60,016 nt of DNA from Gelidibacter salicanalis (lineage in GTDB: Bacteria; Bacteroidota; Bacteroidia; Flavobacteriales; Flavobacteriaceae): positions 1-60,016 of the forward strand of contig NZ_JAEHJZ010000052.1 of assembly GCF_016469035.1 (NCBI RefSeq), given 5' to 3'. Numbering within the stretch: position 1 is the stretch's first letter; every line of letters begins with the position of its first letter. Position numbers and translations under genes: made by a program. Shown here in pieces: positions 23,326 through 57,318 of the stretch. The notes below the pieces were generated by a model. It was not told the DNA's origin, did not search any database, and saw only the letters and a program-made list of their open reading frames with translations.

Positions 23326-25689
23326 TTAGGTAAATTGATACCATTTTTTATTATTCTCAGGATTATTTCCGTAGCCATAGCCATAACCATAGCCTTTTTT
23401 TTCAAAATTAGTACCGTTTAATAATACATGCATTTTTGGTAATCTTTTTTCGGCATATAATGGCGTTGCCACCGCTGCCAGATGCCTTTTGTCCACGTTG
23501 GCAGCGCTCACCACATAAATAAACAAATCTGCAAATTTTGATACAAGCAAGGTATCACTTACTAATCCCACCGCAGACGCGTCTACAATAATATAATCGT
23601 ATTTATTCTCAAAATAATCAAACAATTCCTTTACTCTTGGGCTCATCAATAGTTCAGATGGATTGGGAGGTATAGTGCCTGAAGCAATAACATCCAAAAA
23701 CTCATTGTTTTTAAGCTTGGTTACAATATCATCAGGTTTTAAATTCTTGTCCACTAAAAAATCTGAGAGACCAACTTGAGTAGATGGTTTCTCTTTAAGA
23801 TATTGCATAATTTTAGGCACTCGGACATCCATTTCAACCAACAGTACTGATTTTTCTGAAAAGGAAATTGAAGAGGCTAAGTTTGTACTGGTGTGTGATT
23901 TTCCTTCTTTAGCTCGGGTAGAAGTTATAAATATTTTTTTGGCACTGTTGTCATGGTCTCTCAGTATAAAATCTATATTCGATCGAATAATTCTAAAAGC
24001 TTCGGCTTTTGGAGAATAATCAACTTTATTGATCAGTTTTGTGTTCTTATTAGTCATTGGAACATCCCCAATATATGGGATGTCAAGAACTTGCATTAAA
24101 TCATCTTTATCATAAATTTTTGTATCGAGCAAGTCAATGGCGTAAATTAAACCAACTGGAAGCATCAACCCTAACACTATAGCTGCTAAATAGATAATCA
24201 TTTTATTGGGAGAAACCGGTTTGTGTGTGGAATAGGCGGTATCAATCACTTTTGCATTCGGAGAGAACATGCCAAGACTAATTGCTGATTCTTCACGCTT
24301 CTCCAATAGGTATAAATATAAGGACTCCTTAATGCTTTGTTGACGTTCAATATCTCTAAGTTGTCTCTGTTTTGTAGGCGCAGTATAGAGTTGACCTCTA
24401 ATTCTTGAGTCTTCTCTAGTAAGGTTGCTCAGGGTGATTTGACTTGTTTTTTTCATGTTTTCCAACGAATTCTCCAAATTGGCTTTCAAGGAATTGATTT
24501 CATTGTTCAAGTTGACCACTACTGGGTTTATATTACTCGAATTTTTTAATATTCGATCACGCTGAGCGACCAATTCGTTATAGCTTTTTGTAACTTGGTT
24601 TATGTTTGGATCAGTAATACCAAGGTTAGATGGCAAATAATCGGAACTTTTATTTCCCCCATTTATCTCCTCTTGTAAATAATCAATTAGTTGAATGGTG
24701 TTTGCAGTGCTATTAATTTGAATTTCATTCTGTTTTTCACTTTCCAAATAAATATTGGCCTGAGATCCCAACGCGGTCAAATTATTTCTTTTTTGAATCT
24801 GTTCTGCAGAAAAATCTACTTCTTCTAATTCTTTAAAAACCAGTTCTAAACGATTGTTTATAAAATCAGAAGTCACCTTCACAACTTCTTCCTTATCCGT
24901 AATAACGTCATTATTGTATTCTCTGATGATTTCATTGAGAATATCTACGGCCTTTTCAGGTATATTGTCTTTAAGCTCTAATTTAACAACGCTAGACCCT
25001 TCTTCAGTAGAGGTCATTATACCAGTTTGATATTTATTTACAATGGAGTTTACTGGAGATATGGAGACCTTTAGGTTACTTCCAATTTTTGGGGCGTGTT
25101 TGTCGATATTGGGAATCATGACCATATCGCCAAATCCCGTTTTAATGCGATCTCCAAAAGAAAACAACTTTCCTTCAGAGTCATCACGATCAATAATGGA
25201 TTTGCCATCATCTTTAAACATTAAAAACTGGGATGGAGATTTTATCTTAATATAAAGCGTGGTGTCAACATCATGTATAATTGAATCGTTAGCAAAGAAA
25301 TTTAATTTTATTGAAGGATTTTCATAGCTCTCTTTCTCCTTAATTTTTCCTTGTTCATAATAGCGAACATTCAGTCCTAAGTTTTTGACAATATTAGCAA
25401 CAATGGTTCTTGATGTCATAACTGCTATTTCATCATTTATTTTATTGGTTCCATCAGAGAAAAGTCCGCCTTTCCCAATATCTGCCATATTTGGTAATTT
25501 TTGAGATTGTTTTTCGTCCTTGATTTTGATCGTTGCAGACGCTTTATACTCATAAGTTGTGTACCGAAGATAGCCATATGCCAATGCAAGAGCTGCAATT
25601 AAGAAGAAAGAAATAAACTTCCACCGTTTGAGGTAAATGTTTAACGTTTTTTTTATTTCGTTAGTAGATTTGGTCATTTTAGATTTCAT
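23326..25689 (-). CDS. Wzc-type polysaccharide co-polymerase / BY-family tyrosine kinase
   Basis: This inner-membrane protein of 787 residues sets chain length and helps export a Wzx/Wzy-made polysaccharide. In order it has a transmembrane helix (about 27-47), a Wzz-like periplasmic region with coiled coils (about 50-500), a second transmembrane helix (about 510-532) and a cytosolic BY-kinase domain. Walker A is near 590 (STRAKEGKSHTS), Walker A' near 617 (VLLVEMDVR) and Walker B near 700 (YIIVDAS). The tail has four Tyr-Gly repeats, GYGYGYGYG, the expected autophosphorylation cluster. It is the last gene of the operon, 24 bases after the wza-like gene. No dedicated phosphatase was seen nearby. 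Confidence 0.93.
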   Translation of the reverse strand: MKSKMTKSTNEIKKTLNIYLKRWKFISFFLIAALALAYGYLRYTTYEYKASATIKIKDEKQSQKLPNMADIGKGGLFSDGTNKINDEIAVMTSRTIVANIVKNLGLNVRYYEQGKIKEKESYENPSIKLNFFANDSIIHDVDTTLYIKIKSPSQFLMFKDDGKSIIDRDDSEGKLFSFGDRIKTGFGDMVMIPNIDKHAPKIGSNLKVSISPVNSIVNKYQTGIMTSTEEGSSVVKLELKDNIPEKAVDILNEIIREYNNDVITDKEEVVKVTSDFINNRLELVFKELEEVDFSAEQIQKRNNLTALGSQANIYLESEKQNEIQINSTANTIQLIDYLQEEINGGNKSSDYLPSNLGITDPNINQVTKSYNELVAQRDRILKNSSNINPVVVNLNNEINSLKANLENSLENMKKTSQITLSNLTREDSRIRGQLYTAPTKQRQLRDIERQQSIKESLYLYLLEKREESAISLGMFSPNAKVIDTAYSTHKPVSPNKMIIYLAAIVLGLMLPVGLIYAIDLLDTKIYDKDDLMQVLDIPYIGDVPMTNKNTKLINKVDYSPKAEAFRIIRSNIDFILRDHDNSAKKIFITSTRAKEGKSHTSTNLASSISFSEKSVLLVEMDVRVPKIMQYLKEKPSTQVGLSDFLVDKNLKPDDIVTKLKNNEFLDVIASGTIPPNPSELLMSPRVKELFDYFENKYDYIIVDASAVGLVSDTLLVSKFADLFIYVVSAANVDKRHLAAVATPLYAEKRLPKMHVLLNGTNFEKKGYGYGYGYGNNPENNKKWYQFT

Positions 25690-25713
25690 GAGACTTTATT
25701 GTTGATCTATATA

Positions 25714-26487
25714 TTATTTTATCAAGAACACTGCTAAAATTGTCGTTAAAGTACCAATTGCAGAAATTAAAACAGAGTTGTTCTGATTGTAGGTAGATGA
25801 GCGTATTCTGGAATTATTAGGTTCTACAACAATAACATCATTTTGTTGCAAGTAATAGAGTGGCGAACTTACAGAATTCACTGAGGTCAAGTCCATTTTT
25901 GCAAACCTCTTTTTACCATCCACCTCACGAATTAATAAAACATTTTTGCGCTGGCCAAAAATTGTTAAATCATTAGCTAGGCCTAAAGCTTCCAATAATG
26001 TTATACGTTCATCTTGTATGGTAAATGTCCCCGGATCTGCAACTTCTCCTATAACCGTAACGGTAAAATTAACCAATCTAACGTTTATGATAGGATCTTT
26101 TGCATAGGCGCTTATTTTTTCTTTAAGCATGTTGGTAAGTTCTATTCGTGTCATTCCTGCAATATGTAATGTGCCTAAAACAGGAAATTCTATATTGCCA
26201 TTAAAGTCAATCAAATAGGTCTGCATACGGGTAGATCCAGTTGCTCTAACAAGATCATCGCTTTCTGAAACAACTGATAAATTAAATGGTTTTGCAGCAA
26301 TTGGATCTGCAGCAGAGACATTAATTGTCAAAATATCGTCTGGTTTGTAAATCAGTTGTTCTGGTGTTGAGTCTATATAACCACCACTGAGAGGTTCATC
26401 TTGAAAATATACGAGGTCTTTACGGGATGCGCAGGATGAGGCAAAGGCTAATGCTAATATTGAGATGATAAAGATATGTGTTTTCAT
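25714..26487 (-). CDS. Wza-type polysaccharide export lipoprotein
   Basis: This outer-membrane export protein of 257 residues opens a channel for the surface polysaccharide together with the Wzc-type kinase. It has a lipoprotein signal with Cys19 (ASSC), a Poly_export domain (about 45-135; YKPDDILTINV and DFNGNIEFPVLG) and a SLBB-type domain (about 140-225; VIGEVADPGTF). The C-terminal hydrophobic helix (about 238-257) is a feature of many Bacteroidota homologues. It lies between the PglF-like gene (33 bases upstream) and the wzc-like gene. Confidence 0.92.
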   Translation of the reverse strand: MKTHIFIISILALAFASSCASRKDLVYFQDEPLSGGYIDSTPEQLIYKPDDILTINVSAADPIAAKPFNLSVVSESDDLVRATGSTRMQTYLIDFNGNIEFPVLGTLHIAGMTRIELTNMLKEKISAYAKDPIINVRLVNFTVTVIGEVADPGTFTIQDERITLLEALGLANDLTIFGQRKNVLLIREVDGKKRFAKMDLTSVNSVSSPLYYLQQNDVIVVEPNNSRIRSSTYNQNNSVLISAIGTLTTILAVFLIK

Positions 26488-38513: not shown

Positions 38514-40412
38514 TTATTTTTTGAGATAGATATTTGAGTACCATTTCTGAAAGCAATAGAACGCCCAAACCCTAAATGTGTTGTCGCGTTTACTCTCTAA
38601 ATGATTTTTTACTAAAGGGATGATTTTATCCAATTGAAATATTCCTTGGTCGGAAAGATATGTTTCATCAATATAACCTTCCAACTCTGGCTTCAGGCTT
38701 GATTTAAGCCAATCACCAACCGGAGAGCCAAAACCTTGTTTGCTCTTTTCCAAGAACGCCTCTGGGAACTGGTCTTTAAACGATTCTTTCAAGATATATT
38801 TTTTGTTCCAACCGTTCATTAAGAAATTTTCAGGCAACGTATTGGTATAGTCCCATAGTTTCTTGTTCAAAAATGGGGCACGACACTCCAAGGAATTTTG
38901 CATACTTGTTCGGTCCACTTTGGCCAACATACCGCCTTCGAGACTCAAGATTTTATCTACGTGCCTGAAATCGGTCAAGGTTTCTATTTTTTGGTTTCCT
39001 AAAATATCTTTGTACTCGCCAAATAAATCAGTTTCATAATAAGATGAAGACAAAATTTCAGAAAGTTCAGTTTCAGTATTTGCCAAGGATATGATATCCC
39101 AATAATACTCGCCGTCATAGTCAATGGCCTTTAGCATTTTTTTTATCCTAAAGCGCTTGCCTCTCCTGTCACTTTTATCAGCCAATAATGCTGAGGACGA
39201 TTTTAGTATGACGTTATGTAAGGGTTTTGGTATGAAGTTGGTGTATCGGCTGTTCATTTTACCAACATAATACTTATTGTAGCCACCAAATACCTCATCT
39301 CCACCATCACCGGTGAGCGCAACCTTTACGTAATCTTTCGTTTTATTGGAAACAAAATAGGTGGGTAGGGCAGCGGTATCTGAAAAGGGCTCATCAAAAT
39401 TCATGAGTATTTGGTGGATATTGTCTTTTAAATCATCTTCACCAATGATAAATTCATGGTGGTTACTGTCAATGAGCTTTGCGACTGTCCTCGCCTTACT
39501 CGATTCGTCGGAAGAATCTTTAAAGCCAATGGAAAACGTTTCAATTTTCTTTCCGGTCAGTTGCGATAGACAAAGTGACACGATTGAAGAATCCACTCCT
39601 CCGGAAAGAAATGTTCCCAATGGTACATCGGCAATCGATCTGCTCTCAACACTTTCATAAACCAGATCTTTCACATGTTTTTTAGCATCAACGAATGAAA
39701 TTGAAGCCACTTCCGGTTTAATTTCTTGGTTGATTTTTTTAATACTGAAATTATGGTCAATTAAATCATAGACCATATAATGATTGGCCTCCAATTTTTT
39801 GATCCCATCATAGATTGTGTGAGGTGCAGGAATATAGGTTAACCTAAAAAAAAGATTTAATCCTTTCTTTGAAATTTCAGGTTTAAAATCCAAGGTGTTT
39901 ACAATTGATTTTAATTCTGATGACCATAAAAATTCCTTTTCCGTTTGAAGGTAGTACAGAGGTTTTTCCCCAAAAAAATCTCGGGCAACGAAAAGTTTAT
40001 TGATGTTTTTATCATAAATACTAAACCCAAACATACCATCCAACCATTGGAACGATTCCACGCCATATTTTTCATAAGCTTTCAAGATAACTTCAGTATC
40101 ACTAGTAGTAATGAACTTAACACCTTCTGCTTCCAATCTGGATTTGATAGTTTTGTAATTATAGATTTCACCATTAAAAACGATAACTATCTGCTTGTCT
40201 TCTGAAAAGATAGGTTGTTCACCTGACGTCAAATCAATAATGGACAACCGTCGCATTCCCATCCCTATAGAAAAATCATTATTTTCTTCTGAAAATATAC
40301 CATCATCATCGGGTCCTCTGTGAATGATGAGATCGTTCATTGTATCAATGATAGAAGATATGTTCTCTTTATTATAATGAGTTTTTGTAATAATCCCGTT
40401 AATTCCGCACAT
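38514..40412 (-). CDS. asnB: Glutamine-dependent amidotransferase, AsnB type
   Basis: This 632-residue enzyme has an N-terminal class II glutaminase domain with nucleophile Cys2 (MCGINGI) and a C-terminal synthetase domain (about 235-610) with the ATP-binding SGGVDSSIV near 268. Housekeeping AsnB makes asparagine. Copies inside polysaccharide loci, such as this one, usually amidate uronic acids or similar sugars. It lies between two GT4 genes in one minus-strand unit (12 bases from the next). The locus role is inferred; an asparagine supply function remains possible. Confidence 0.9.
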   Translation of the reverse strand: MCGINGIITKTHYNKENISSIIDTMNDLIIHRGPDDDGIFSEENNDFSIGMGMRRLSIIDLTSGEQPIFSEDKQIVIVFNGEIYNYKTIKSRLEAEGVKFITTSDTEVILKAYEKYGVESFQWLDGMFGFSIYDKNINKLFVARDFFGEKPLYYLQTEKEFLWSSELKSIVNTLDFKPEISKKGLNLFFRLTYIPAPHTIYDGIKKLEANHYMVYDLIDHNFSIKKINQEIKPEVASISFVDAKKHVKDLVYESVESRSIADVPLGTFLSGGVDSSIVSLCLSQLTGKKIETFSIGFKDSSDESSKARTVAKLIDSNHHEFIIGEDDLKDNIHQILMNFDEPFSDTAALPTYFVSNKTKDYVKVALTGDGGDEVFGGYNKYYVGKMNSRYTNFIPKPLHNVILKSSSALLADKSDRRGKRFRIKKMLKAIDYDGEYYWDIISLANTETELSEILSSSYYETDLFGEYKDILGNQKIETLTDFRHVDKILSLEGGMLAKVDRTSMQNSLECRAPFLNKKLWDYTNTLPENFLMNGWNKKYILKESFKDQFPEAFLEKSKQGFGSPVGDWLKSSLKPELEGYIDETYLSDQGIFQLDKIIPLVKNHLESKRDNTFRVWAFYCFQKWYSNIYLKK

Positions 40413-44101: not shown

Positions 44102-45070
44102 CTATAAAGACGGCGTACTTTTGTTTTTAATATCCGTTATATCCAATAGTTTTCCTAATTTTTCATCACATTCATGCTGCCAAAATTTTCTGAATCCAGA
44201 CGATTGGTGTAATGTCAATTCGCCAAAATAAGTTTTGCCCTTAACAGAATAAAAATCAACTCTGAGATATATAAAACCCTCTGCAAGTTTTTCAGCAAGC
44301 ATTATCATTTCTTCAAAATTTGATGGTCTTGGCAGATCCTTGCCATTTGGTCTACCCCAATTGCAGGGCATTAAATTCCAATGGATATCATACAAATTTC
44401 TTGCTCTATTGTCTTTATGTCTGTCTAAATCGACTCCAATAAATTGCACTTTTCCATTAAAACAATGAAGCTTATAATCATCAGGAATACTGCCGTCTTC
44501 ATTGGTCAATAATTTCTCGACTACAATTCTTGGCACAATATTTTTGTATTGCCATTCTCTGGTGCTATAGAAATTGTTTTCTTTTAATAGCTTTTTAAAT
44601 CTTTTCCTAGTTTTTGGCCAATCAACTACCAATTTATCTCTGACTATTACGCCACCGGAACTATCGTGATTGGTCTTAATTATAAATTCAGTATTGGGTA
44701 AGTTTTCCGGTGTAATATCATCAGAGTTATCAGTATCATATAATAAAGGAATTAAGTACTGCTCGCCAATTTTTTCTTTTATATAAGATCTTACCTTGTA
44801 TTTATCAGCTATGAGTGTGTGTATGTCCTCTTTATTATAAAGTTTTAACCAATTTATCTTTTCGTTTAAGGTTTGTGGGTTGTTTAAATCCAGATCATAG
44901 CCCATATGCTTTTTAAAGCTGGATTTTACTATGACCTCATCAGGTATTACCATTAAAATTGATTCATAAATTTTATAAAAGGGACGCACCAAGTGATACC
45001 CCAATTCTGAATGTCTGTATAAGTTTGATGCTTTCTTTCTGAAACTTTCTTTTCTTAAATCTGAAGCCAT
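44102..45070 (-). CDS. TupA-like ATP-grasp amidoligase
   Basis: This 322-residue protein matches the TupA-like ATP-grasp family, named after teichuronopeptide synthesis, in which poly-amino-acid is linked to a uronic-acid polymer. Typical residues are the start GYDLDLNNPQTLNEKINWLK (about 55-74), FIIKTNHDSSGGVIV near 130, PDDYKLHCFNG near 198 and RVDFYSVKGKTYFGELT near 268. It has no signal peptide. It is 26 bases downstream of the hexapeptide acetyltransferase gene. Together with the other ATP-grasp genes it argues for amino-acid decoration of the polymer. Confidence 0.86.
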   Translation of the reverse strand: MASDLRKESFRKKASNLYRHSELGYHLVRPFYKIYESILMVIPDEVIVKSSFKKHMGYDLDLNNPQTLNEKINWLKLYNKEDIHTLIADKYKVRSYIKEKIGEQYLIPLLYDTDNSDDITPENLPNTEFIIKTNHDSSGGVIVRDKLVVDWPKTRKRFKKLLKENNFYSTREWQYKNIVPRIVVEKLLTNEDGSIPDDYKLHCFNGKVQFIGVDLDRHKDNRARNLYDIHWNLMPCNWGRPNGKDLPRPSNFEEMIMLAEKLAEGFIYLRVDFYSVKGKTYFGELTLHQSSGFRKFWQHECDEKLGKLLDITDIKNKSTPSL

Positions 45071-45096: not shown

Positions 45097-45678
45097 TTAA
45101 ATGTGTTTAATTATATTTTTAATATCAACTTCGCCAATTTGTTTCGCCGGAATTCCGCCAATAACAATGTTCTCTTGGTCAAAAGATTTATTGACAACAG
45201 CATTGGCACCAATTGCTATATTATTGGCTATGGTGATATTACCGTATATTTTTGCTCCTGGAGCTATATATACATTATCTCCAATTTGAGGTGCACCTCT
45301 GTTTCCTCCTGAAGCACCAATATTGACGCAAGCGTGAATTCTGCAGTTACTTCCTACTTTTGCATTTCTGTTGATGACAATGGTTCCATAATGGACAATA
45401 CATAAGCCTGGACCAAAGACATTGATTGGTATTGAAAAACCGAGTTTTATGGAGATTTTCCTAAACTTATATTTTAAATAATATATATAGAGTTTACCTA
45501 GTCCTCTGTTTTTACAATTACTGTAGTACTCTAGTTTCCGCATTGTTTTTTGAAATTTCCAAATAGAATTTGGAAACAACGTCGTGGTTAGTTTAGTTAT
45601 TGCGGAATTTGATTTAATCCTTAGCGCTACCTTGTCCCTTTCTAAGTAGTGGTGATAATTAGCTTTAGATGTTATCAT
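45097..45678 (-). CDS. Hexapeptide-repeat acetyltransferase (serine-acetyltransferase-like)
   Basis: This 193-residue protein has a left-handed beta-helix at about 80-185, with hexapeptide signatures such as INRNAKVGSNCRIHACVNIG and APGAKIYGNITIANN. His93 in CIVHYGT and His111 in CRIHACVN are candidate catalytic residues. It lacks the long N-terminal helical domain of true CysE, so it more likely O-acetylates a sugar of the polymer. It lies between the flippase gene and the TupA-like gene on the minus strand, with 96 bases to the former. Confidence 0.84.
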   Translation of the reverse strand: MITSKANYHHYLERDKVALRIKSNSAITKLTTTLFPNSIWKFQKTMRKLEYYSNCKNRGLGKLYIYYLKYKFRKISIKLGFSIPINVFGPGLCIVHYGTIVINRNAKVGSNCRIHACVNIGASGGNRGAPQIGDNVYIAPGAKIYGNITIANNIAIGANAVVNKSFDQENIVIGGIPAKQIGEVDIKNIIKHI

Positions 45679-45774: not shown

Positions 45775-47358
45775 CTATTTAACCAGTTTTTTAATAATTA
45801 ACGATTTTATTCTGAGACAAAAAACTCTAAATCCTGGAATTAAAAAAAACAGTAAAACACCATAGATCACAAGTGCTGTAACAGTTATTTGAAAAGCATA
45901 AACAGCCCAGTTCCATAGATTTAAATTGTCTTTATCGTAATTAAAAAAACTGGAAATCCAGGTTACTAAAAGTGCTGATGCACAAAAGACCACTATCATA
46001 GGTGTTAACCCTTTCCAATACAACCAAACACTTTTATTAAATCCATGTTTGTATAAAAAATAAGGTTTCCAAAGAATTACCATAAAAAACATACTCACTA
46101 AGGTGCCTAACATAATACCCGCTATGCCATAAATACTTCCAAACAACAATGAAACACCCAAATTAATTATTGCTTCAGCCGCTGCCGCCCATGTATCTGC
46201 ATATAATCCATAGGCATTTTTAAAACGCTCAATAGGAGAGTTGATCTCATTCAAGAAAAAATTGGCAATCATTAATAATAAAATGCTTTGAGAAAGAATA
46301 TATTTTTCGCCTAACCATAATAAAATAAAGGAGTCCATGAGATGGTAAATTGTAATACTAAAAAACCCCGCTATAAAAAACTGTACGGCAATGAGCTCCC
46401 AAAGGACCTTTTTGATATTTTTTTCATCATTTTCTGCAATGAGGTTGCCCACTGCAGATCCTGTACCAGCAAAAGACATTTTAACTAACCCGCCAAGTTT
46501 TACAAATATCAATTGATAATTCCCAAAGAAAGTAACACTCTGAAGATTTATTAAAGCATAGATGAGTAGATTGTCTGTTCCGTTTTTTACAAAAGAGCTC
46601 ATCTTATGAAAAAACACCTGTTTGATCTTCTTAAGTATATCTGGATATTCTTTTATGATTTCGGCTTTCTCGGCTGAGTTGATAATAAGCCAAGGATATT
46701 CTTTTTTTATTTTGTGCCTTACTAGCAAACTATATAAAATGCTAAATACCAGTTCTAGCGTTATGTATAAATAAAAGTTTTTGAGATAGAGAGCAACAAT
46801 AACTTGTAACCCTATCCTAATGATATTAAAGGTCTGAAAGTATTGCTGAATAATATACCCTTTTTGGTCTGCCCCAAGCAAGCTGATGTGATAGTTAACA
46901 AAGTAGCTCAACAAGGTTGATGTTAACAAGGCATAAAACACAAAATAGATTAACGGTAACGAAAAGGGAACGTCATCAAATATTAAAGGAAAAAAAAGTG
47001 AAACAATAAAGCCAATACCAAATATGAAATAGCCTATTCTTTTATAAAGTACACCAAGAAGTGCAATGATTTTATTAATTTCTTTATAGTCTTTATCAAA
47101 AATTGGTTTATAGAGTGTAAAACCAATAGCGGTACCTATTCCCAATTCAGCTAAATTCAGAAAGCTTAAAACACTCCTCAAAGTTGTTTCCAAGCCCATA
47201 AATGAATCGCCGAGAGTATCTAAAAAAATCTTTCTCGTGAAGAATTGCACAAAAATTGAAAGTATGAAGAAAAACACACCAATTTTCGCATTTTTTAAAG
47301 ACTTGGAGACTCTTGACATTTTATGCTTAATATTTGTTTTAATAACATGGGAATACAA
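45775..47358 (-). CDS. Wzx-type lipid-linked oligosaccharide flippase
   Basis: This polytopic inner-membrane protein of 527 residues, with about 12-14 hydrophobic segments, flips undecaprenyl-linked repeat units to the periplasm. It belongs to the polysaccharide transporter family of the MOP superfamily. Features are the N-terminal RVSKSLKNAKIGVFFF with a helix at about 25-47, FLDTLGDSFMGLETTLRS just after, and the later NEINSPIERFKNAYGLY. The start at 47358 puts an amphipathic lead before the first helix, and a later ATG at residue 14 is possible. It heads the minus-strand unit flippase, acetyltransferase, ATP-grasp. Confidence 0.9.
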   Translation of the reverse strand: MYSHVIKTNIKHKMSRVSKSLKNAKIGVFFFILSIFVQFFTRKIFLDTLGDSFMGLETTLRSVLSFLNLAELGIGTAIGFTLYKPIFDKDYKEINKIIALLGVLYKRIGYFIFGIGFIVSLFFPLIFDDVPFSLPLIYFVFYALLTSTLLSYFVNYHISLLGADQKGYIIQQYFQTFNIIRIGLQVIVALYLKNFYLYITLELVFSILYSLLVRHKIKKEYPWLIINSAEKAEIIKEYPDILKKIKQVFFHKMSSFVKNGTDNLLIYALINLQSVTFFGNYQLIFVKLGGLVKMSFAGTGSAVGNLIAENDEKNIKKVLWELIAVQFFIAGFFSITIYHLMDSFILLWLGEKYILSQSILLLMIANFFLNEINSPIERFKNAYGLYADTWAAAAEAIINLGVSLLFGSIYGIAGIMLGTLVSMFFMVILWKPYFLYKHGFNKSVWLYWKGLTPMIVVFCASALLVTWISSFFNYDKDNLNLWNWAVYAFQITVTALVIYGVLLFFLIPGFRVFCLRIKSLIIKKLVK

Positions 47359-47929: not shown

Positions 47930-47995
47930 AACTCCTTTCGTCTAATAATTAAACGTTTTGACTGTTAAGCACTGTAAATTATATAATTTCGCATA

Positions 47996-48013
47996 CCCCC
48001 CCCCAAAAAAAAA
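47996..48013 (+). repeat. C9-A9 double homopolymer in the leader of the giant gene
   Basis: Nine C are followed directly by nine A, 23 bases before the ATG at 48037 and just after the candidate -7 box (47984-47991). In an AT-rich genome C9 is striking, and such tracts change length by slippage. Confidence 0.9.
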
Positions 48014-48036: not shown

Positions 48037-51000
48037 ATGAAGTTCCTACTTGCCCAATTCAATTCACCACAAAAATTAAATCCATTTCCAATAATTATTC
48101 TTCTATTCTTCTTTTCTTATAGTTTAATTGCACAACAATTAGCATTCCCAAATGCGTATGGTGCCGGAGCCTATGCAAAAGGCGGTCGAGGAGGTAAAGT
48201 TGTTCATGTCACTAGTTTACTTGATGTTAAAGAATCAGATTCTAGATATGTAGGTACGTTGAGATGGGCTCTGAAAGGCGCTGAGAATAAAAGCGTTAGT
48301 AGAACAATAGTATTTGATGTCAGTGGAATAATTGACTTATATAGTGATATGTATATAAGTAATGCTCCCGGAGATGAAGGCGGTTATGCTGATGGCGTAA
48401 CCATTGCAGGTCAATCTGCTCCCTTAGGAGGCATAACCATTACTGGAGGAAAAATAAAAATTAAAGGAATCAATGATTTTGTCATTAGATATGTCAAGTT
48501 TAGGTCTACCGGAAATTATGATGGGTGTTTGAGTATAGGCTATGCAGACAATTTAATACTTGACCACCTTTCCGGTTCTCACACGCCTGACATTGTTTTT
48601 TCAGTTACCTCTAATGGTGGTACGTATTCTACCAATCATACAATTCAGAATTGCTTAATGTCCAATTCTAAAAATGGACTTATTATTGGCGACAGTCATT
48701 TTGTAAATGGCGTTCCAGAGATCCCTTATGGTAGCGTTTCCATATATAGAAATGCGTATTATAATGTTGGATGGAGAATACCGGCTAAATTTGGAGGTTC
48801 AGGTTCTTTTGATGTGATTAATAATGTAGCCCATAATTGGAGTGCTAGATTGATGAGGTTTGACCCCTATAATTATAAATTAAACCACATCGGTAACTAT
48901 TATCAAAGTGGTTATTCAAGTATATCCAGTAAATTTAATAAATTACAAAAAACGTGGGTAGGTTATTTTAACATGTCTCCTAAAATCTATCAAGAGGATA
49001 ATTATTATAGTGAAGATGTTAGGCCTCCTGGCTATAAAGACAACAAAAGTTTAGACTGGACCGTTTTTTATTCAAAAAATGATACCGATAAAATAGACTT
49101 TGACAAATGGTTTGTCTCTAAAAAACTTCCTATTCAGGGGAGACAAATGCCAATTTTAAGTTCTCAGTCAGTAAAAGATGATGTTCTTAATCTGGTTGGT
49201 AGTTCACAATATATAAAGGATGATGGTACAGTTGGGTTTCATCGTGATAAATATGATTTACATTCTGTAAACGGGATAGCTATCAAAGACGTTTCTACAA
49301 GCAGAGGCGAGACCATTGAAAAACCAGTCATCTCTCAATCAACCAAAAGACCAAAAAACTTCTATGTAAACAATCCACATATTCCTGAGGTTTGGTTTAG
49401 TGCTCACGTGCCAAAAGGCCAAGACCATAATGATATTGCACCAACTGGATACACTTGGTTGGAGATGTATCTCAACCAAGTTGATGGGGCAGTAGATGAT
49501 ACAAAAGTATCAGCAAAAGATATAGAGGTTATTGTGCCAAAAGATTTTTCAGGGCTTTATGTTTCTGAAACTGTAAAATTAGATGTCGTTTTTACACCAG
49601 CCAATACGACAAATAAAAATGGAGTTTGGAGCAGTAAGGATGATACCATTGCAACGGTAGATAGTAACGGCCTTGTGACGGGAGTGGCACCAGGGAAAGT
49701 GAGCATAACCTTTACCGCAGCTGATGGTGGTCATGAAGATGCCACGAACATAACAGTTTTTCCGAAAGCGCTCCAAGCGAGCGCAGGTATTGACCAACAG
49801 ATTTGTAAAGGCGAAAGCACCACACTTACAGCAAGTGGAGGCACAAATTATGTATGGAGTACAGGTGAAACTACAACGAGTATCGAAGTAACCCCTAAAA
49901 AGACAACAACTTATACGGTTAAGGTTTCAGATAAAAATGGTCAGTCAGAAGACGCCAAGGTTACTGTTACAGTCAATCCGATTCCTGTAGTTGATGCCGG
50001 TAATGATATGACAATCAATTCAGGAGAGGTCATTTCGTTATCTGCTACCGGAGCCAAAACTTATCAATGGAGTACAGGAGATAATGGTGCGACCATTACC
50101 GTGAGTCCTAAATCATCCCAAACTTACACTGTAACGGGAATGATTGATGGTTGTGAGGCGACAGACACCGTTAAGGTAATTGTTGTGAAATCTACTAAAG
50201 TTGTAGCTGATGTAGGTAAAGATCAAAACATCTGTAAAGGAACAACCACCACTTTAACGGCTACAGGTGGTTCCACCTACCTCTGGAATACAGGGGCCAC
50301 TGCAGCAAGTATTGATGTGGCGCCAGAAGATACCACTACTTATACCGTTACGGCGTTTGATAGCACCGGAGATAATTCAGATACTGATAAAGTGACAATA
50401 ACTGTCAATAGTTTGACTGTAGATGCCGGGAACGATATAACCATCACTGCAGGTGAGAGCGTTAAATTAACGGCAGAAGGTGCCGAAACTTATAAATGGA
50501 GCACAGGAGACAAAAACGCAAGTATTACCGTGAGTCCTACCGTAACAAAAACTTACACTGTAACAGGAACCTCAAATAGTTGTAAAGCGACGGACACTGT
50601 AAAGGTTACCGTTCTAAATACTGTTGAGGTTGTTGCCAATGCAGGTGCCGATCAGAGTCTATGTGAAGGCGCCAGCACAACTTTAACCGCAACAGGAGGT
50701 TCTACATATTTATGGAGTACTGGAGAAACAACTTCCAGTATAAAAGTAGCTCCAAATGAAACTACGGTATATGAAGTTACAGTTTATGACAGCGCAGGAA
50801 ATAATTCAGATACGGATGAAGTGACCATAACAGTCAATCCATTGCCATCAATAGATGCAGGAAGCGATAAAACAATTACTGCAGGAGAAAGCATTTTATT
50901 AACTGCTACAGGCGCAAAAATTTATAAATGGAGCACAGGAGGGACAAGCGCGAGCATTACCGTGAGTCCTACTGCAACAACAACTTACACTGTAACAGGG

Positions 51001-53769
51001 AGCTTGAATGGTTGTGAAGTGACAGACACTGTAAAGGTTAAAGTTTTAAATACTACTGCAGTTGTTGCCGATGCGGGAGAGGACCAGAGCATCTGTGAAG
51101 GGTCCAGCGTCACCCTTACGGCCACAGGCGGTTCAACCTACCTATGGAGCACTGGGGATAAAACCCAAAGTATTACTTTCGACCCAGGACAGACCGCAAC
51201 ATATACAGTTACGGCCTATGACGGTACGGGCAAAAAATCTGACCGTGATGATGTTATCGTAACGGTAAACCCCTCTGCCAAGGTAAATGCAGGCAACGAC
51301 GTCACCATCAATGCGGGAGATAAAGTTACCTTAACTGCTACAGGTGCCAAATACTTTATGTGGAGCACCGGAGACAAGAAGTCCAGTACCACGGTTCGGC
51401 CAACGGTCACCACCACTTACAGTGTGCGGGGCAAGAATGATGGCGGTTGCGAGGGCACGGATACGGTGAAGGTCATCGTAAAAAAGGAAGAGTCTGCGGG
51501 CATTACAGCGGATGCGGGAGAAGACCAGAGCATGTGCGAAGGGTCCAGCGTCACCCTTACTGCCACAGGCGGTTCTACCTACCTATGGAGCACGGGAGAT
51601 AAAACCCAAAGTATTACTGTAGGTCCGGAAAAGAACACAACATATACAGTTACGGCCTATAACGGCACGGGCAAAAAATCTGACCGCGATGATGTTACGG
51701 TAACGGTAAACCCGATTGCCAAGGTAAATGCAGGCAAGGATGTCACCATCAATGCGGGAGACAAGGTTACCTTATCTGCTACAGGGGCGAAATATTTTAT
51801 GTGGAGCACTGGAGACAAGAAGTCCAGTACCACGGTTCGGCCAACGGTCACTACGATTTACAGTGTACGGGGCAAGAATGATGATGAGTGCGAGGGCACG
51901 GATACGGTGAGGGTCATCGTAAAAAAGGAAGAGTCTGCTGGCGTTACGGCCGATGCGGGAGAGGACCAGAGCATGTGCGAAGGGTCCAGTGTCACCCTTA
52001 CGGCCACTGGCGGTTCTACCTACCTATGGAGCACTGGCGCTAAAACCCAAAGTATTACTGTAGGTCCAGAAAAGAACACAACATATACAGTTACGGCCTA
52101 TAACGGCACGGGCAAAAAATCTGACCGCGATGATGTTACGGTAACGGTTAACCCCTCTGCCAAGGTAAATGCAGGCAACGATGTCACCATCAATGCGGGA
52201 GACAAGGTTACCTTATCTGCTACAGGGGCGAAATATTTTATGTGGAGCACTGGAGACAAGAAGTCCAGTACCACGGTTCGGCCAACGGTCACTACGATTT
52301 ACAGTGTACGGGGCAAGAATGATGATGAGTGCGAGGGCACGGATACGGTGAGGGTCATCGTAAAAAAGGAAGAGTCTGCTGGCGTTACGGCCGATGCGGG
52401 TGAGGACCAGAGCGTCTGCGAGGGGTCCAGCGTCACCCTTACGGCCACAGGCGGTTCTACCTACCTATGGAGCACGGGGGCTAAAACCCAAAGTATTACT
52501 TTCGACCCAGGACAGACCGCAACATATACAGTTACGGCCTATGACGGTAAGGGCAAAATATCTGACCGCGATGACGTTACGGTAACGGTAAACCCCATTG
52601 CCAAGGTAAATGCAGGAAAGGATGTCACCATCAATGCGGGAGAGGAGGTTACCTTATCAGCTACGGGGGCCAAATACTTTATTTGGAGCACTGGCGACAA
52701 GAAGTCCAGTATCAGGGTTCAGCCAACGGTCACTACGACTTACAGTGTGCGCGGCAAGAATGACGATGAGTGCGAAGGTAAGGATAAGGTGACTGTTACT
52801 GTGATAAGTAATGAAAGGGCGGTGGCTGATGCAGGTTCAGATCATACTATTTGTGGAGGATCGACCGTAGCACTTACTGCAACAGGGGGAGATGCCTACT
52901 TATGGAGTACAGGAGAAACGACACCTACCATTGTGGTAAGTCCTACAACTACATCAAAGTATTCAGTTACAGCCTATGTTGGTAAAACTGCAGATACAGA
53001 TGAGGTCATGGTTTATGTAGACTCAAAACCTAATGTGAATATTACAAATGGTACAGAGACTTCAATCCTTGAAGGTGAGTTTATAACTCTCTCGGCTACT
53101 GGAGCAAAAAGATATAAATGGAGTAATGGTGTCACTGACCCTAATATAGCAGTTAGTCCGGAGGCCACTAAATCTTATAATGTTGTTGGTAGCGTTGATC
53201 AATGTTTTGCGAAAAAATCAATTACAGTTAATGTTTATGATAAAGTGGTGGCTAATGCAGGTAATGATGTTACTATATGTAAAAATGAAACCACAATTCT
53301 AACCGCTGAAGGTCCTGAAAACAGTGACTATTTATGGAGCACTGGTGAGACAACTAAAAGTATTACCGTAGACCCAAAAGAGGATACCGAATACTCTGTA
53401 ATGGTTTACCATGATTTAGATTCTGACACGGACAGTGTTGTGGTCAAAGTTGAAGACTGTAAAACTTCCCAACAAATCACTAATCAATCTATTGCTGTTC
53501 TAGAGGGATCAACAGAACTAAAGTTGTTAATTCACCCTAATCCTACGCATGGACTAGTAAACATCAACATTTCAGGTCTCACCAATCAATCATCAAGTAT
53601 TCATTTGTATGATCTTTCAGGTAAGTCGTTGTATAATGAAACGATTAATAACGGTAAAACAAAGAGTTACGTAAAAAAACTCAACCTGTCAGATTACGCA
53701 GCGGGTATTTACCTATTGCAATTGGTAGATAACCAACGCGTCATCACTAAAAAAATAGTGGTGAGGTAA
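48037..53769 (+). CDS. T9SS-secreted pectate-lyase-like protein with 17 Ig-like repeats
   Basis: This 1910-residue secreted protein has, in order, a signal peptide with likely cleavage after Ala32, a right-handed beta-helix of the pectate-lyase type (about 34-400; GGRGGKVVHVTSL, TIVFDVSG, IRYVKFRS, LDHLSGS and GWRIPAKF, the latter with a candidate catalytic Arg), a BIG2 domain (about 490-577), then 17 modules of about 73 residues alternating types A and B (about 580-1807). Type A has Cys in DQ-x-ICEG and WSTGETT; type B has GAK-x-YKWSTG and one Cys. The last 80 residues are a type A T9SS sorting domain (IHPNPTHGLVNI to ITKKIVVR). Four module pairs from 51067 are near-identical 441-bp repeats. 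The repeats resemble gliding-motility SprB-type ones. Confidence 0.88.
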   Translation: MKFLLAQFNSPQKLNPFPIIILLFFFSYSLIAQQLAFPNAYGAGAYAKGGRGGKVVHVTSLLDVKESDSRYVGTLRWALKGAENKSVSRTIVFDVSGIIDLYSDMYISNAPGDEGGYADGVTIAGQSAPLGGITITGGKIKIKGINDFVIRYVKFRSTGNYDGCLSIGYADNLILDHLSGSHTPDIVFSVTSNGGTYSTNHTIQNCLMSNSKNGLIIGDSHFVNGVPEIPYGSVSIYRNAYYNVGWRIPAKFGGSGSFDVINNVAHNWSARLMRFDPYNYKLNHIGNYYQSGYSSISSKFNKLQKTWVGYFNMSPKIYQEDNYYSEDVRPPGYKDNKSLDWTVFYSKNDTDKIDFDKWFVSKKLPIQGRQMPILSSQSVKDDVLNLVGSSQYIKDDGTVGFHRDKYDLHSVNGIAIKDVSTSRGETIEKPVISQSTKRPKNFYVNNPHIPEVWFSAHVPKGQDHNDIAPTGYTWLEMYLNQVDGAVDDTKVSAKDIEVIVPKDFSGLYVSETVKLDVVFTPANTTNKNGVWSSKDDTIATVDSNGLVTGVAPGKVSITFTAADGGHEDATNITVFPKALQASAGIDQQICKGESTTLTASGGTNYVWSTGETTTSIEVTPKKTTTYTVKVSDKNGQSEDAKVTVTVNPIPVVDAGNDMTINSGEVISLSATGAKTYQWSTGDNGATITVSPKSSQTYTVTGMIDGCEATDTVKVIVVKSTKVVADVGKDQNICKGTTTTLTATGGSTYLWNTGATAASIDVAPEDTTTYTVTAFDSTGDNSDTDKVTITVNSLTVDAGNDITITAGESVKLTAEGAETYKWSTGDKNASITVSPTVTKTYTVTGTSNSCKATDTVKVTVLNTVEVVANAGADQSLCEGASTTLTATGGSTYLWSTGETTSSIKVAPNETTVYEVTVYDSAGNNSDTDEVTITVNPLPSIDAGSDKTITAGESILLTATGAKIYKWSTGGTSASITVSPTATTTYTVTGSLNGCEVTDTVKVKVLNTTAVVADAGEDQSICEGSSVTLTATGGSTYLWSTGDKTQSITFDPGQTATYTVTAYDGTGKKSDRDDVIVTVNPSAKVNAGNDVTINAGDKVTLTATGAKYFMWSTGDKKSSTTVRPTVTTTYSVRGKNDGGCEGTDTVKVIVKKEESAGITADAGEDQSMCEGSSVTLTATGGSTYLWSTGDKTQSITVGPEKNTTYTVTAYNGTGKKSDRDDVTVTVNPIAKVNAGKDVTINAGDKVTLSATGAKYFMWSTGDKKSSTTVRPTVTTIYSVRGKNDDECEGTDTVRVIVKKEESAGVTADAGEDQSMCEGSSVTLTATGGSTYLWSTGAKTQSITVGPEKNTTYTVTAYNGTGKKSDRDDVTVTVNPSAKVNAGNDVTINAGDKVTLSATGAKYFMWSTGDKKSSTTVRPTVTTIYSVRGKNDDECEGTDTVRVIVKKEESAGVTADAGEDQSVCEGSSVTLTATGGSTYLWSTGAKTQSITFDPGQTATYTVTAYDGKGKISDRDDVTVTVNPIAKVNAGKDVTINAGEEVTLSATGAKYFIWSTGDKKSSIRVQPTVTTTYSVRGKNDDECEGKDKVTVTVISNERAVADAGSDHTICGGSTVALTATGGDAYLWSTGETTPTIVVSPTTTSKYSVTAYVGKTADTDEVMVYVDSKPNVNITNGTETSILEGEFITLSATGAKRYKWSNGVTDPNIAVSPEATKSYNVVGSVDQCFAKKSITVNVYDKVVANAGNDVTICKNETTILTAEGPENSDYLWSTGETTKSITVDPKEDTEYSVMVYHDLDSDTDSVVVKVEDCKTSQQITNQSIAVLEGSTELKLLIHPNPTHGLVNINISGLTNQSSSIHLYDLSGKSLYNETINNGKTKSYVKKLNLSDYAAGIYLLQLVDNQRVITKKIVVR
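51067..52824 (+). repeat. Tandem 441-bp DNA repeat array inside the giant gene
   Basis: Units start at 51067, 51508, 51949 and 52390, each 441 bases (147 codons, one A module plus one B module); the next module pair starts 435 bases later at 52825 and is divergent. The units at 51508 and 51949 are almost identical over their length. G+C is visibly higher here, near half by eye, than in the flanking AT-rich repeats. Recent amplification or gene conversion would explain both. Confidence 0.92.
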
Positions 53770-54407: not shown

Positions 54408-55511
54408 TCAAACAATTTCTTTTAACTTATCTTCAGTCTTTAACTTATAGATTTGATATTGAACCCACATAGCTGCAAATGTGACATAGTAAAATCCAAA
54501 AAAGTTATGGTTTGCCATTAAAAATAGTGATAATGCAATTATTTGCATAATTAAATTTGGCGCCCTATGGAAGTAAATGAAGCTCATATAAAGTAAGTAC
54601 ATGATATATATTACAAAAACAATAAAGGGTATAATTCCTGCCTCACCAATTATTCTTAAATACGTATTATGAACACCCAAGTTCATATTGCCCTTTCCTG
54701 AAAATGTTCCGTATCCGTTACCTATTAACGGAGAATCATAAATTTGATCATAAAATAATGCCCATGTATCAGCTCTAGAATCAGAAGTTATTTCTTGGTT
54801 TGATACGTCTTCATTGTTTACAATACTTTTTAATTGGTTAAAACGCGGGTTATTTAGACCTATCAGTTCATCTATAAAAAATAATGTTCCCAAGATCAAA
54901 ACACCACTACCTAAAATACGGAGGTTTTTGATACTTATTTTTAAAGAAATTAGATTAATAAAAAGCCAGATAACGATAAATGTTCTGGAGAATGTAAGAA
55001 GACCTGTAAGTGTAAATACAAATTGCCCAATATATTTTAAACTCGATCTTTTCAGGCCATAGGTTAAGGCAAACCCAGTAATGCAGATAAACCCTGCTAC
55101 ATTTGGGTTTATATAAAATCCAGAATAACGCCCAAAACGCGTTGGAAAAAATATAGATTCGACCCCAATACTCAAAGCTCCAATTAACAAAAATACATAG
55201 AGTTCTGTAATGGTAATATGTTTTGAGAGTTCATAACCACATATTATAAAGACAATGTATTTTATGAATTCCATTAAAAAAGTGGCCGTATCGCCTGAGT
55301 ACTGCAAGCCAGAAATTGAATAAAATAGTAATGCAATAATCAGTAGCCACCAGTTGGGTGCAGACTTTTTTTCTAAAAAATAGTATATGGCTAATAAAAC
55401 TATGGTTGCATAACTTAACACACTTCCAAGTGCACCACCGTAGATAGACAAAGCTATTGAGGGCAAGTTCAATATCACTAAGGCAAAAATTATATATTTT
55501 AAAATTTTCAT
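54408..55511 (-). CDS. O-antigen ligase / polymerase family protein (Wzy_C type)
   Basis: This polytopic membrane protein of 367 residues, with about 10-11 hydrophobic segments, polymerises or ligates the repeat units at the periplasmic side. The large periplasmic loop has the family pattern SRADTWALFYDQIYDSPLIGNGYG near 240-265 followed by VHNTYLRIIGEAG near 278, typical of the Wzy_C/O-antigen ligase domain. It is 22 bases downstream of a GT4 gene in a two-gene minus-strand unit. Whether it polymerises (Wzy) or ligates (WaaL) is not decided by sequence alone, but a locus with Wzx, Wza and Wzc needs a Wzy and this is the only candidate here. Confidence 0.88.
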   Translation of the reverse strand: MKILKYIIFALVILNLPSIALSIYGGALGSVLSYATIVLLAIYYFLEKKSAPNWWLLIIALLFYSISGLQYSGDTATFLMEFIKYIVFIICGYELSKHITITELYVFLLIGALSIGVESIFFPTRFGRYSGFYINPNVAGFICITGFALTYGLKRSSLKYIGQFVFTLTGLLTFSRTFIVIWLFINLISLKISIKNLRILGSGVLILGTLFFIDELIGLNNPRFNQLKSIVNNEDVSNQEITSDSRADTWALFYDQIYDSPLIGNGYGTFSGKGNMNLGVHNTYLRIIGEAGIIPFIVFVIYIMYLLYMSFIYFHRAPNLIMQIIALSLFLMANHNFFGFYYVTFAAMWVQYQIYKLKTEDKLKEIV

Positions 55512-55533: not shown

Positions 55534-56634
55534 TTATTTAATGTGTGTTTTTATAATAGCATCCCATTGGGCCGTAACTTTCTTACTGGTATATTGTTCT
55601 GAAGTTTCTCTAGCTTTTTCTGAAAATTGTGTCCTTAATTTTTCTTCATAAATTAATTCAGACATTTTTGAGGTCAGTAAATTTTGGTCATCAACAGGCA
55701 CTAAAAACCCATTAACGCCATCATTTATTAAATCTGAAGGTCCGAAATCGCAATCCGTTGATATGCATGGTAAACTAAAATGCATTGCCTCTAATAACGC
55801 GTTGGGAAAACCTTCTGATTTAGAAGTAAATACAAAAAGTGATGCTTTGTTGTAATAATTATGAATGTCCTTTATATGTGACAAAATTTCAATTTTATCT
55901 CCTAGGTCATGAGACTTTATAAGTTCTATTAAACTTTCCTTTTTAGGACCCGCTCCAATAATCATAACTTTCCAACCCTCTGGCTCTAAGGTATGAAATG
56001 CATTGATTAATTTATGATGTTGCTTATCGTTAGTTAGTCTCCCTACTGAAAGAATGATGTTTTCTCGTGGATGAGTTTCATTTCTTAATAGAGATAGTTC
56101 TGAAGATAGTGGATTGGGAAGAATAGAAATGTCTCGCGATTTAACTAAGGGTACATAAATCTGTTTCACATTTTTTGTCTGCACAATTAAATGATTGGCC
56201 ATTGGATAGACATGTTTTCTCAAAATCAACCAGAATTTTGGTATGGAATTGCTTAATGGATTATTGCGCTCACTTATTAAACAAGGGATGTTATTTAATT
56301 TTGCAGCAATTGTAGCAATTATATTTGCTGAAGTTATAAATCCTATAAGCAAATCAATCTGTTCATTTCTGGTGATTTTGGATACTCTCCTAGTCAATTC
56401 AAAATTCAATCTTATAGATCCAATTGCTGATGTTGGTTTATCAATGTCGTCAAAGCATGATACAACTTTAATTCTACTGTCTAGAGGATAGAAAGGGTCA
56501 GATTTTGTAAATGTAATAATCGTGACCTGATATTTTTCAACAAGTTCATTGCTTAGAGTAGATATGACGCGTTCTGCACCACCCGGCCTTAAAGCCCCAA
56601 TGACAAAGGCTATTTTTTTTTTATTTGTTTTCAG
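55534..56634 (-). CDS. GT4 glycosyltransferase with a non-ATG start
   Basis: This GT4 glycosyltransferase has the EX7E motif EGFPNALLEAM. From the first TTG-type start (56409) it would be only 291 residues and lack the N-terminal motif. The frame continues upstream without stops, and in it GALRPGGAERVIS, the hallmark N-terminus of the family, is found (56601 to about 56560). The upstream in-frame stop leaves no ATG, GTG or TTG, and the best-placed codon is CTG at 56634, giving 366 residues, the usual length. A run of ten A follows within codons 4-8. Either initiation is noncanonical or the start codon was lost by mutation. Confidence 0.82.
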   Translation of the reverse strand: MKTNKKKIAFVIGALRPGGAERVISTLSNELVEKYQVTIITFTKSDPFYPLDSRIKVVSCFDDIDKPTSAIGSIRLNFELTRRVSKITRNEQIDLLIGFITSANIIATIAAKLNNIPCLISERNNPLSNSIPKFWLILRKHVYPMANHLIVQTKNVKQIYVPLVKSRDISILPNPLSSELSLLRNETHPRENIILSVGRLTNDKQHHKLINAFHTLEPEGWKVMIIGAGPKKESLIELIKSHDLGDKIEILSHIKDIHNYYNKASLFVFTSKSEGFPNALLEAMHFSLPCISTDCDFGPSDLINDGVNGFLVPVDDQNLLTSKMSELIYEEKLRTQFSEKARETSEQYTSKKVTAQWDAIIKTHIK

Positions 56635-56934: not shown

Positions 56935-57318
56935 CTATCCGTCTTTTTTATCCAAAACAATAGTTTCAATAGTTGCTAAAGAATCGCAGTTTTTAATCTG
57001 TAATTTAAAATCTTGATTTTTAAAGCTATTTTCTATGATGTACGTTTTACAGGTTTCAGTTTTAGTATCGCTTTCAGAAAAATTGACAGAGCCATATTTT
57101 ATCATGTCTGAAACGGTGGCAGAATCCATTTGAAAAGTGCGCATGGTCTGTAAAGCCTCTTCTGAATATGATTTCTTTTTTTGAGAGATCGTTTTTGTGG
57201 TTCTGGCATTAGGGCCATAGGCACAAGAGGTTTTTTTGCCGCTTAAAAAAAACGCAAGAATAATTAAACCTATAGAGAAGCCACCCAAATAGTAGCCCAA
57301 TCGATGAATGAATTTCAT
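56935..57318 (-). CDS. DUF4258-type membrane-anchored protein
   Basis: This 127-residue protein has an N-terminal hydrophobic segment (about residues 8-27) with a Cys at 32, followed by a basic linker and an extracytoplasmic beta-rich domain. It resembles the DUF4258 proteins that flavobacteria keep next to alanine dehydrogenase, and its start lies one base after the ald stop, so it is probably co-transcribed with ald. Function unknown. Two further cysteines (about 89 and 109) may form a disulfide. Confidence 0.75.
   Translation of the reverse strand: MKFIHRLGYYLGGFSIGLIILAFFLSGKKTSCAYGPNARTTKTISQKKKSYSEEALQTMRTFQMDSATVSDMIKYGSVNFSESDTKTETCKTYIIENSFKNQDFKLQIKNCDSLATIETIVLDKKDG

Follow-up and report, generated by a model that had tools for sequence, protein, structure and literature searches.

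Why does a gene for a lyase-like protein lie among the genes with which a bacterium makes its own polysaccharide coat, and what does its product act on? We studied this question for the open reading frame (ORF) 48037-53769 (+) in a 60,016-nucleotide stretch of the Gelidibacter contig NZ_JAEHJZ010000052.1 (Flavobacteriaceae); the whole stretch is called the window in the following. The original prediction, made from the sequence alone, had described a pectate-lyase-like helix on a repeat rod, exported by the type IX secretion system (T9SS) from within a polymer locus, and had suggested that the lyase could remodel or anchor the polymer if this contains uronic acid or, given an incomplete calcium (Ca) site, that the helix might bind instead of cleaving. 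We find the partnership of lyase-like head and polymer locus to be real and recurrent, with a lyase of the cell's own coat as the best reading, while the step from the Ca site to binding turns out to be weak. We assign a probability of about 0.5 to the protein being a lyase that resides at the surface and acts on the Wzx/Wzy polymer of its own cell. Since the pairing of head-rod and coat genes recurs in related bacteria, the target of the head is probably the own coat rather than food.

Architecture and fold of the protein

The gene is one open frame with an ATG start and encodes 1910 amino acids. Its parts are the following.

48037..53769, +: whole gene, i.e., signal peptide, PL1-like head, Big_2, 17 immunoglobulin-like (Ig-like) modules, T9SS tail
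48037..48132, +: N-terminal signal peptide, residues 1-32, mature start QQLAFP (by eye; homologue alignments)
48133..49506, +: PL1-type parallel beta-helix head, about residues 33-490 (phmmer, profile, AlphaFold2, Foldseek)
48523..48525, +: G163, Ca-site Asp position (94-head alignment)
48562..48564, +: D176, invariant in 94/94 heads (alignment)
48589..48594, +: D185-I186, position of the Asp-Glu pair of the Ca site (alignment)
48775..48777, +: R247, catalytic-type Arg, invariant in 94/94 heads, followed by I-P-A-K (alignment)
49561..49734, +: Big_2 domain, residues 509-566, E 1.1e-14 (Pfam)
49762..53457, +: 17 Ig-like modules of ~72 amino acids, early-Cys and late-Cys types alternating (regular expression, hidden Markov model (HMM), AlphaFold2)
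53458..53460, +: C1808, terminal Cys directly after module 17, predicted partner of the early Cys of module 17
53530..53766, +: T9SS type A C-terminal sorting domain, residues 1832-1910 (Pfam, TIGR04183)

The combination of lyase-like helix, BIG2 domain, 17 modules and T9SS tail in one protein is thus confirmed by Pfam, TIGR04183, fold comparison and HMM. The module count of 17 is obtained both by regular expression and by HMM, and the tail is matched by Por_Secre_tail (PF18962; residues 1832-1909, E 1.2e-11) as well as by TIGR04183 (E 7.2e-13). Pfam matches of Multi_ubiq, Lyx_isomer and Hirudin on the rod were judged false and repeat-driven. Within its own genome the head has a single match, and all 6/6 matches of a query made from modules 9-12 fall within this ORF. 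The head of the nearest named relative, from G. salicanalis, is 93% identical to the window head.

The Pfam match of the window head to PF00544 stays below threshold (20.9 bits, cut-off 24), although a sibling head (L092) scores 27.3 bits and thus passes. The PL1 assignment therefore rests on homology to the PL1 structure 9buj. It is matched by the head in a phmmer search (E 5.7e-19) and by a profile of 18 relatives (E 3.6e-75), for which VexL (6fi2) is the second-best solved relative (E 1.7e-19). An AlphaFold2 model of the head from 68 aligned sequences (predicted local distance difference test, pLDDT, 90.1; predicted template modelling score, pTM, 0.92) gives the same order in Foldseek, i.e., 9buj first (E 9.6e-17) and VexL second (E 4.2e-11). 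Among the best 50 fold matches, ranks 1-23 are all taken by pectate lyases, pectin lyases, VexL or Jun a 1. By homology and predicted structure, the head is a PL1-type parallel beta-helix.

The best relative by sequence and fold is thus PfPL1 (PL1 subfamily 2, PDB 9buj). Its locus and substrate, described as pectin degradation and pectin-like (PMC11229556), correspond to what is called the catabolic clade below and not to the exopolysaccharide (EPS) side, where the window head stands. VexL (PL1 subfamily 13, PDB 6fi2) shares the PL1 beta-helix fold, and its catalytic Arg position aligns. It is reported as the depolymerase of the Vi polymer from Achromobacter denitrificans, itself a Vi producer, and so resembles the role proposed here as a lyase from a bacterium that makes the very polymer it cuts (PMC9597891). 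There are also differences: VexL is periplasmic and related to an ABC transporter according to the title of the structure, whereas for the window head we predict T9SS export as part of a rod protein, and its gene lies in a Wzx/Wzy-type locus; moreover, VexL reads RNPR where the window head reads RIPAK. AlgL, to which the head had first been likened, is periplasmic and has a fold other than the PL1 beta-helix. As a lyase that forms part of the machinery making its substrate (PMC4432689), it is an apt analogy for a lyase kept in a polymer locus, but VexL is the nearer match, as it shares the fold of the head and ranks second by both profile and structure.

T9SS cargo with one to three (1-3) copies of a pectin lyase domain is reported to be common in Prevotella intermedia (PMC11969387). 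This likeness is one of description, and the text available from that source mentions no link to a polymer-synthesis locus. In the open-licence literature, as far as its texts were accessible, we found no description of this protein type or of a lyase in a Flavobacteriaceae Wzx/Wzy locus.

Heads recur beside polysaccharide-synthesis genes

The gene sits in a polysaccharide locus, as had been proposed and as the family matches of its neighbours confirm; the locus is of Wzx/Wzy type. The locus encodes Wzz/Wzc-like and Wza-like proteins, a PseB/CapD-like dehydratase, a LegC-like aminotransferase, a phosphoglycosyl transferase, glycosyltransferases, a TupA-like ATP-grasp protein, a hexapeptide transferase and a Wzy_C protein, where several of the NCBIfam matches fall under the curated cut-offs.

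We surveyed 397 Flavobacteriaceae genomes with a profile of 14 heads, scoring at most 4 candidates per genome; 90 genomes have a head match at 1e-15. The strong set comprises all 27 loci at E <= 2e-90 outside the genomes G000 and G001, and the weak set 39 hand-picked weaker loci (35 from the survey plus L043-L046). Loci were read over ~20 kb, and 20 random regions from the same genomes served as controls. A locus was counted as polysaccharide locus if core marker families, up to two glycosyltransferases and the Ugd/CapI pair added up to at least 3, at least one of them a core marker.

This applies to 25/27 strong, 17/39 weak and 0/20 control loci, counts in which divergent genes are underrepresented because the marker profiles were grown from single seeds. 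SusC/SusD-like genes are found within the same distance in 0/27 strong and 14/39 weak loci as well as in 4/20 controls. For 22/27 strong loci wider flanks were read on at least one side; with these, L092 qualifies too and L091 is the sole remaining exception in the strong set. The linkage of head and synthesis genes is seen repeatedly across many genera.

Two arrangements can be distinguished. A rod gene is usually placed at the locus end away from wza/wzc, where it adjoins the flippase gene, and it runs antiparallel to the nearby synthesis genes in 26/28 scorable rods. In many loci of the short, rodless form, the head lies between Ugd/CapI-like genes and a block of aminotransferase, dehydratase, wza and wzc. 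A simple lipobox pattern is present in 26/29 short proteins, while it occurs in 1/30 rods, 2/23 heads in SusC/SusD (SusCD) context and 0/12 others. Two head genes per locus or contig are observed for L031 (near-identical), L036/L037, L092, L046 and L118.

Tree of heads and mosaic loci

We computed a quick tree of 94 heads, from which the fragment L124_3_680 was omitted. The EPS label of three heads (L032, L037, L092) was assigned manually, as their loci continue in adjoining regions. All 23 heads from SusCD context form, together with 11 unmarked heads, one clade of 34 (Shimodaira-Hasegawa-like approximate likelihood ratio test, SH-aLRT, 99), i.e., the catabolic clade. The 59 locus-linked (EPS) heads and L091 are all outside of it. 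Since the root and the deep branches are weak, the tree provides a split and no proof of direction. Locus-linked heads are more diverse, with a median pairwise identity of 34% compared to 45% on the other side. Together with the recurrent placement relative to controls, this split from SusCD-linked lyases bears out that the head belongs with the polymer locus.

The locus-linked proteins are 30 rods and 29 short forms. The rod label needs six changes along the tree, at least four when judged by starred branches. The short rodless heads and these repeated gains or losses of the rod suggest that the head and not the rod defines the partnership.

Within the loci, identities to the window differ between genes, as expected for mosaic evolution. 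For five congeners we find 93-96% for alanine dehydrogenase and 68-79% for the T9SS tail, with heads at 37-55%. A sixth congener (G001) shows 94% for the head and 95% for the flippase, while dehydrogenase and tail are not on its contig. Winogradskyella ursingii has 70% for the head, 77% for the flippase, 30% for the tail and 84% for the dehydrogenase. In partial Mantel tests, head distances correlate with those of wzy (0.20, 0.22 and 0.28 for three controls; p 0.004-0.005; 19, 18 and 15 loci). The head's own tail shows no such coupling (0.07, p 0.27 with the flippase controlled, 13 loci; or -0.06, p 0.60). These sequence comparisons give modest support to the view that the head follows the polymer genes and not its own tail.

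Export and the cysteine rule of the rod

The genome encodes the T9SS marker GldN above cut-off, for which 0/14 control genomes are positive. With the TIGR04183/PF18962 tail this supports the T9SS export that had been proposed, i.e., the protein is, as judged from its tail and the genome's T9SS, a type A cargo. In Porphyromonas, Tannerella and Prevotella, T9SS cargo is reported to be tied via its new C-terminus to lipopolysaccharide-type glycans (PMC11969387), from which we infer a surface tethering of the rod protein.

The rod modules measure ~72 amino acids around the motif W-S-T-G; where present, an early Cys precedes the Trp by ~17 residues and a late Cys follows it by ~31. We investigated 25 rods of at least four modules each, with a total of 306 modules and 281 junctions by HMM. 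An early Cys occurs in module i if and only if a late Cys occurs in module i+1. This rule holds at 281/281 junctions, compared to a mean of 153 and a maximum of 180 for 2000 shuffles of module order; owing to tandem duplication of modules and close kinship between some of the rods, the junctions are not independent. The array ends show the same pattern. In 25/25 rods there are 0 Cys from the head to module 1, which is early-only. Behind the last module, a Cys follows 41-42 residues past the last Trp in 21/21 intact rods ending early-only and is absent in 2/2 ending late-only; this count excludes L030, whose rod is cut by a contig end, and L032, which is frameshifted.

Other rules describe the data less well. 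Pairing the late Cys of module i with the early Cys of module i+1 holds at just 207/281 junctions, and a balance within modules in only 43/306 modules. A variant in which two-Cys (CC) modules have intramodule bonds and all remaining bonds are of the late(i)-early(i+1) kind also agrees with the internal junctions and is disfavoured by the array ends. Counting by regular expression yields 263/268, where 4/5 misfits are gaps of 141-145 residues in which a module was missed; the HMM version was therefore used. Five ORFs with headless rod fragments contain 3 misfits at 14 junctions; the ORF start truncates the first modules that misfit, and they were therefore not counted.

In an AlphaFold2 model of modules 9-12 (pLDDT 93.8, pTM 0.48), the first strand ends with the early Cys, and in the following module the late Cys comes immediately ahead of the final strand. 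Given the strand direction in this model, both would be located at the junction. Sequence rule and model thus predict disulfide staples across module junctions. For Ig-like rods, no interdomain disulfides were found in the titles or abstract openings of the open-licence papers listed by a single search.

The best fold match of the Ig-like module is grappling hook protein A (GhpA) of Aureispira sp. CCB-QB (9flp and others; E 3.8e-15 for 9flp), which is also the best profile match of the rod and is itself a surface rod built of Ig-like domains. GhpA is different in its length of 5898 residues and in that its modules shown carry both early and late Cys instead of alternating. A single-sequence search with the rod did not retrieve it. 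The Pfam family Ig_7 (PF19081) matches the sibling rod L086 (E 3.5e-27) but not the window rod, where the Cys are split between neighbouring modules.

Cutting, binding or foraging

Own-polymer cleavage fits the sequence and model data best. The protein would cross the outer membrane through T9SS and stay held at the surface, with the PL1-type head at the free N-terminal end of the 17-module Ig-like rod. The groove of the head would take up the cell's own polymer and cut it by beta-elimination with Arg247 as base and no catalytic metal. As a result, the coat would be trimmed, released or remodelled away from the membrane. Disulfides running from a module's early Cys to the late Cys of its successor would stiffen the rod. 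The analysis itself shows the architecture, the predicted fold, the repeated linkage to the synthesis locus, the separation from SusCD-linked lyases, the invariant Arg and the Cys rule; the own polymer as ligand, its cutting, the surface anchoring, the orientation and the disulfides themselves are all parts that we infer.

Arg247 and Asp176 are invariant in 94/94 heads, including all 60 on the EPS side, and R247 aligns to the first Arg of the RTPR stretch of 9buj. For PfPL1 (PL1_2), metal-independent catalysis with two Arg residues has been proposed, and metal-independent catalysis of VexL is cited in the same paper (PMC11229556). The first of the two PfPL1 residues aligns with Arg247; for the second, Arg235, no counterpart could be assigned in the numbering of the aligned chain.

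A number of observations weigh against own-polymer cleavage or at least complicate it. First, the active site is altered. The three compared acid positions (D-D-E) are presumably the PL1 Ca site. The set is complete in 34/34 heads of the catabolic clade vs. just 26/60 on the EPS side, and the window head reads G163, D185 and I186, i.e., two of three acids are gone. Thus, the incomplete Ca-site pattern noted originally is borne out. The position of G163 is Asp in 34/34 catabolic-clade and 27/60 EPS-side heads. Also the surrounding of Arg247 differs: it is followed by NPR or NPS in 28/34 catabolic-clade heads and by FPN or TPN in 28/60 EPS-side heads, and the window's RIPAK contrasts with the mostly RNPR or RNPS of the former. 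These altered neighbours suggest, from the alignment, a different substrate or a different charge neutralisation.

Second, uronic acid genes are missing near the window head. The pair of Ugd and CapI-like genes ('CapI-like' is our own label; NCBIfam reports related epimerase and dehydratase families below cut-off) is found within ~20 kb in 26/27 short-form loci (e.g., L088, L094, L126) and 0/20 controls, but in just 5/28 rod loci. Neither Ugd nor CapI-like matches were found on the window contig, and the genome's only pair of this kind reported here is at C1:160711-163120 (76% and 63% identical to W. ursingii proteins). The idea that the polymer contains uronic acid is therefore strong for the short form, whereas the polymer of the window may or may not contain it. 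Short and rod forms may meet different polymers.

Third, the coupling to individual locus genes is uneven. Three other Winogradskyella have flippases at 65-69% identity to the window yet heads at 45-46% (tails 34-35%). The head-flippase coupling is not significant in the partial Mantel test when FlaA1, DegT or wza, the three controls of the wzy test, is controlled (p 0.21, 0.47, 0.29); of the controls used, the T9SS tail alone makes it significant (0.42, p 0.003). Head-asnB coupling is not significant in this test either, and with the flippase controlled the head tracks FlaA1, a backbone gene of the locus (0.44, p 0.005). Finally, two strong loci carry SusC-like genes at a distance of 10-30 kb from the head (L089, there together with SusD, and L094), and the window itself has a SusC-like ORF at 4701-7427, ~40 kb from the head.

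The alternative that survives best, and which we regard as possible rather than probable, is a head that has lost catalysis and binds the own polymer, either as a lectin tying the coat to the rod or by recognising kin with the same coat. The D-D-E set being incomplete in 34/60 EPS-side heads and in the window, and the residue after R-x-P being mostly Asn (39/60) or Lys (10/60) instead of Arg or Ser on the EPS side, would be expected of such a binder; furthermore, long rods with a terminal head are adhesin-like, and the nearest rod fold is that of Aureispira GhpA. On the other hand, all 60 EPS-side heads retain Arg247 and D176, although a pure binder would have no need of the base. The change in the Ca site leaves cutting vs. 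binding undecided, because VexL is reported and PfPL1 proposed to act without metal (PMC11229556); with Arg247 invariant, the suggestion that an incomplete Ca site means binding is a weak one. The idea that an asnB-like amidotransferase yields a neutral uronamide, for which no Ca is needed, was set aside, given that asnB-like genes are near the head in 24/26 listed loci whatever the Ca site.

It is improbable that the protein is an ordinary lyase foraging on pectin or algal polysaccharide that came to lie beside the coat genes by chance. The nearest solved relative is indeed the pectin-active PfPL1, polysaccharidases are reported among T9SS exports (PMC9296495), and the two strong loci with distant SusC-like genes point the same way. 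Against this stand the SusCD counts within ~20 kb (none in the strong set vs. 14/39 weaker loci), the separate clade of SusCD-context and unmarked heads and the linkage to synthesis genes across genera. Equally unlikely is a gliding or attachment adhesin whose head ligand is an outside surface and for which the locus is merely a convenient co-regulated site, since its adhesin-like layout of rod and T9SS tail and its orientation opposite to the synthesis genes are outweighed by the non-catabolic heads that are short, rodless and mostly lipoprotein-like proteins beside Ugd and CapI-like genes and by the at least four gains or losses of the rod.

Neighbourhood of the gene in the window

Beside the rod gene, the following neighbours are of interest.

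45775..47358, -: flippase-like membrane protein, divergent neighbour of the rod gene (recurrent place)
54408..55511, -: Wzy_C polymerase/ligase (Pfam)
55534..56409, -: glycosyltransferase, Glycos_transf_1 (Pfam)
44102..45070, -: TupA-like ATP-grasp (Pfam)
45097..45678, -: hexapeptide acyltransferase (Pfam)
38514..40412, -: asparagine-synthase-like amidotransferase (NCBIfam)
23326..26487, -: Wzz/Wzc-like and Wza-like export pair at the opposite end of the locus

The protein at 45775-47358 has no match in Pfam or NCBIfam; its length, hydrophobic stretches and place point to wzx. A pair of genes for an AMP-ligase and a HAD-containing protein lies within the locus at 33809-37341 (+) and is not at the same place in G. 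salicanalis (L029); it may be a decoration cassette. At the locus boundary, next to alanine dehydrogenase, Gelidibacter and Winogradskyella loci have a conserved protein of ~126 amino acids (56935-57318 in the window), which has no Pfam match.

Flippase-like gene and rod gene are separated by a divergent region of 678 bases. Here, TTTTCTTACAAAAA is present on both strands, at 47815 (-) and 47919 (+). A looser pattern, CTTACA...TCGAAT...TTTAAAC, precedes 10/30 rods (the window's excluded), 1/29 short forms and 0/35 others. It is also found before 11/2173 other ORFs, but this number includes 7 head genes of overlapping loci. Repeat and pattern may represent a shared control element. A sigma-70-like match at 47958-47987 (11/12) is one of 4 in the region, where 4.8 are expected. 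Between it and the ATG, at 47996-48004, a run of nine C is followed by nine A. The nine-C run is the only C or G run of at least 8 in the window and corresponds to CCCC at the same place in G. salicanalis; it is possibly a length-variable tract or a sequencing effect. A poly-C tract as common phase switch was rejected, as runs of 7 or more occur in just 1/30 rods.

Meaning for the coats of Flavobacteriaceae

Lyases of a bacterium's own polymer are already known, e.g., VexL (periplasmic by its structure title) and AlgL. If the protein is such a lyase, its T9SS-exported, rod-mounted form, recurring across Flavobacteriaceae, would open the remodelling of the coat at the outer surface to direct tests, and the family would be a source of enzymes matched to many marine bacterial polymers. 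Going further, we tentatively consider a widespread, coat-matched PL1-fold head in Flavobacteriaceae, carried by rods and by lipoproteins, that reads or cuts the strain's own polymer and diversifies with the polymer genes, with the rod as a new disulfide-ladder filament, its modules bonded to their neighbours instead of internally, presenting it as a stiff tool for the own coat or for self-recognition; as a whole, this wider picture is less probable than the resident lyase. The cysteine rule provides a simple and falsifiable prediction of the way in which such long surface rods gain their stiffness. For annotation, some 'pectate lyases' of marine Bacteroidota may not forage pectin, and genomic context together with phylogeny separates the two groups.

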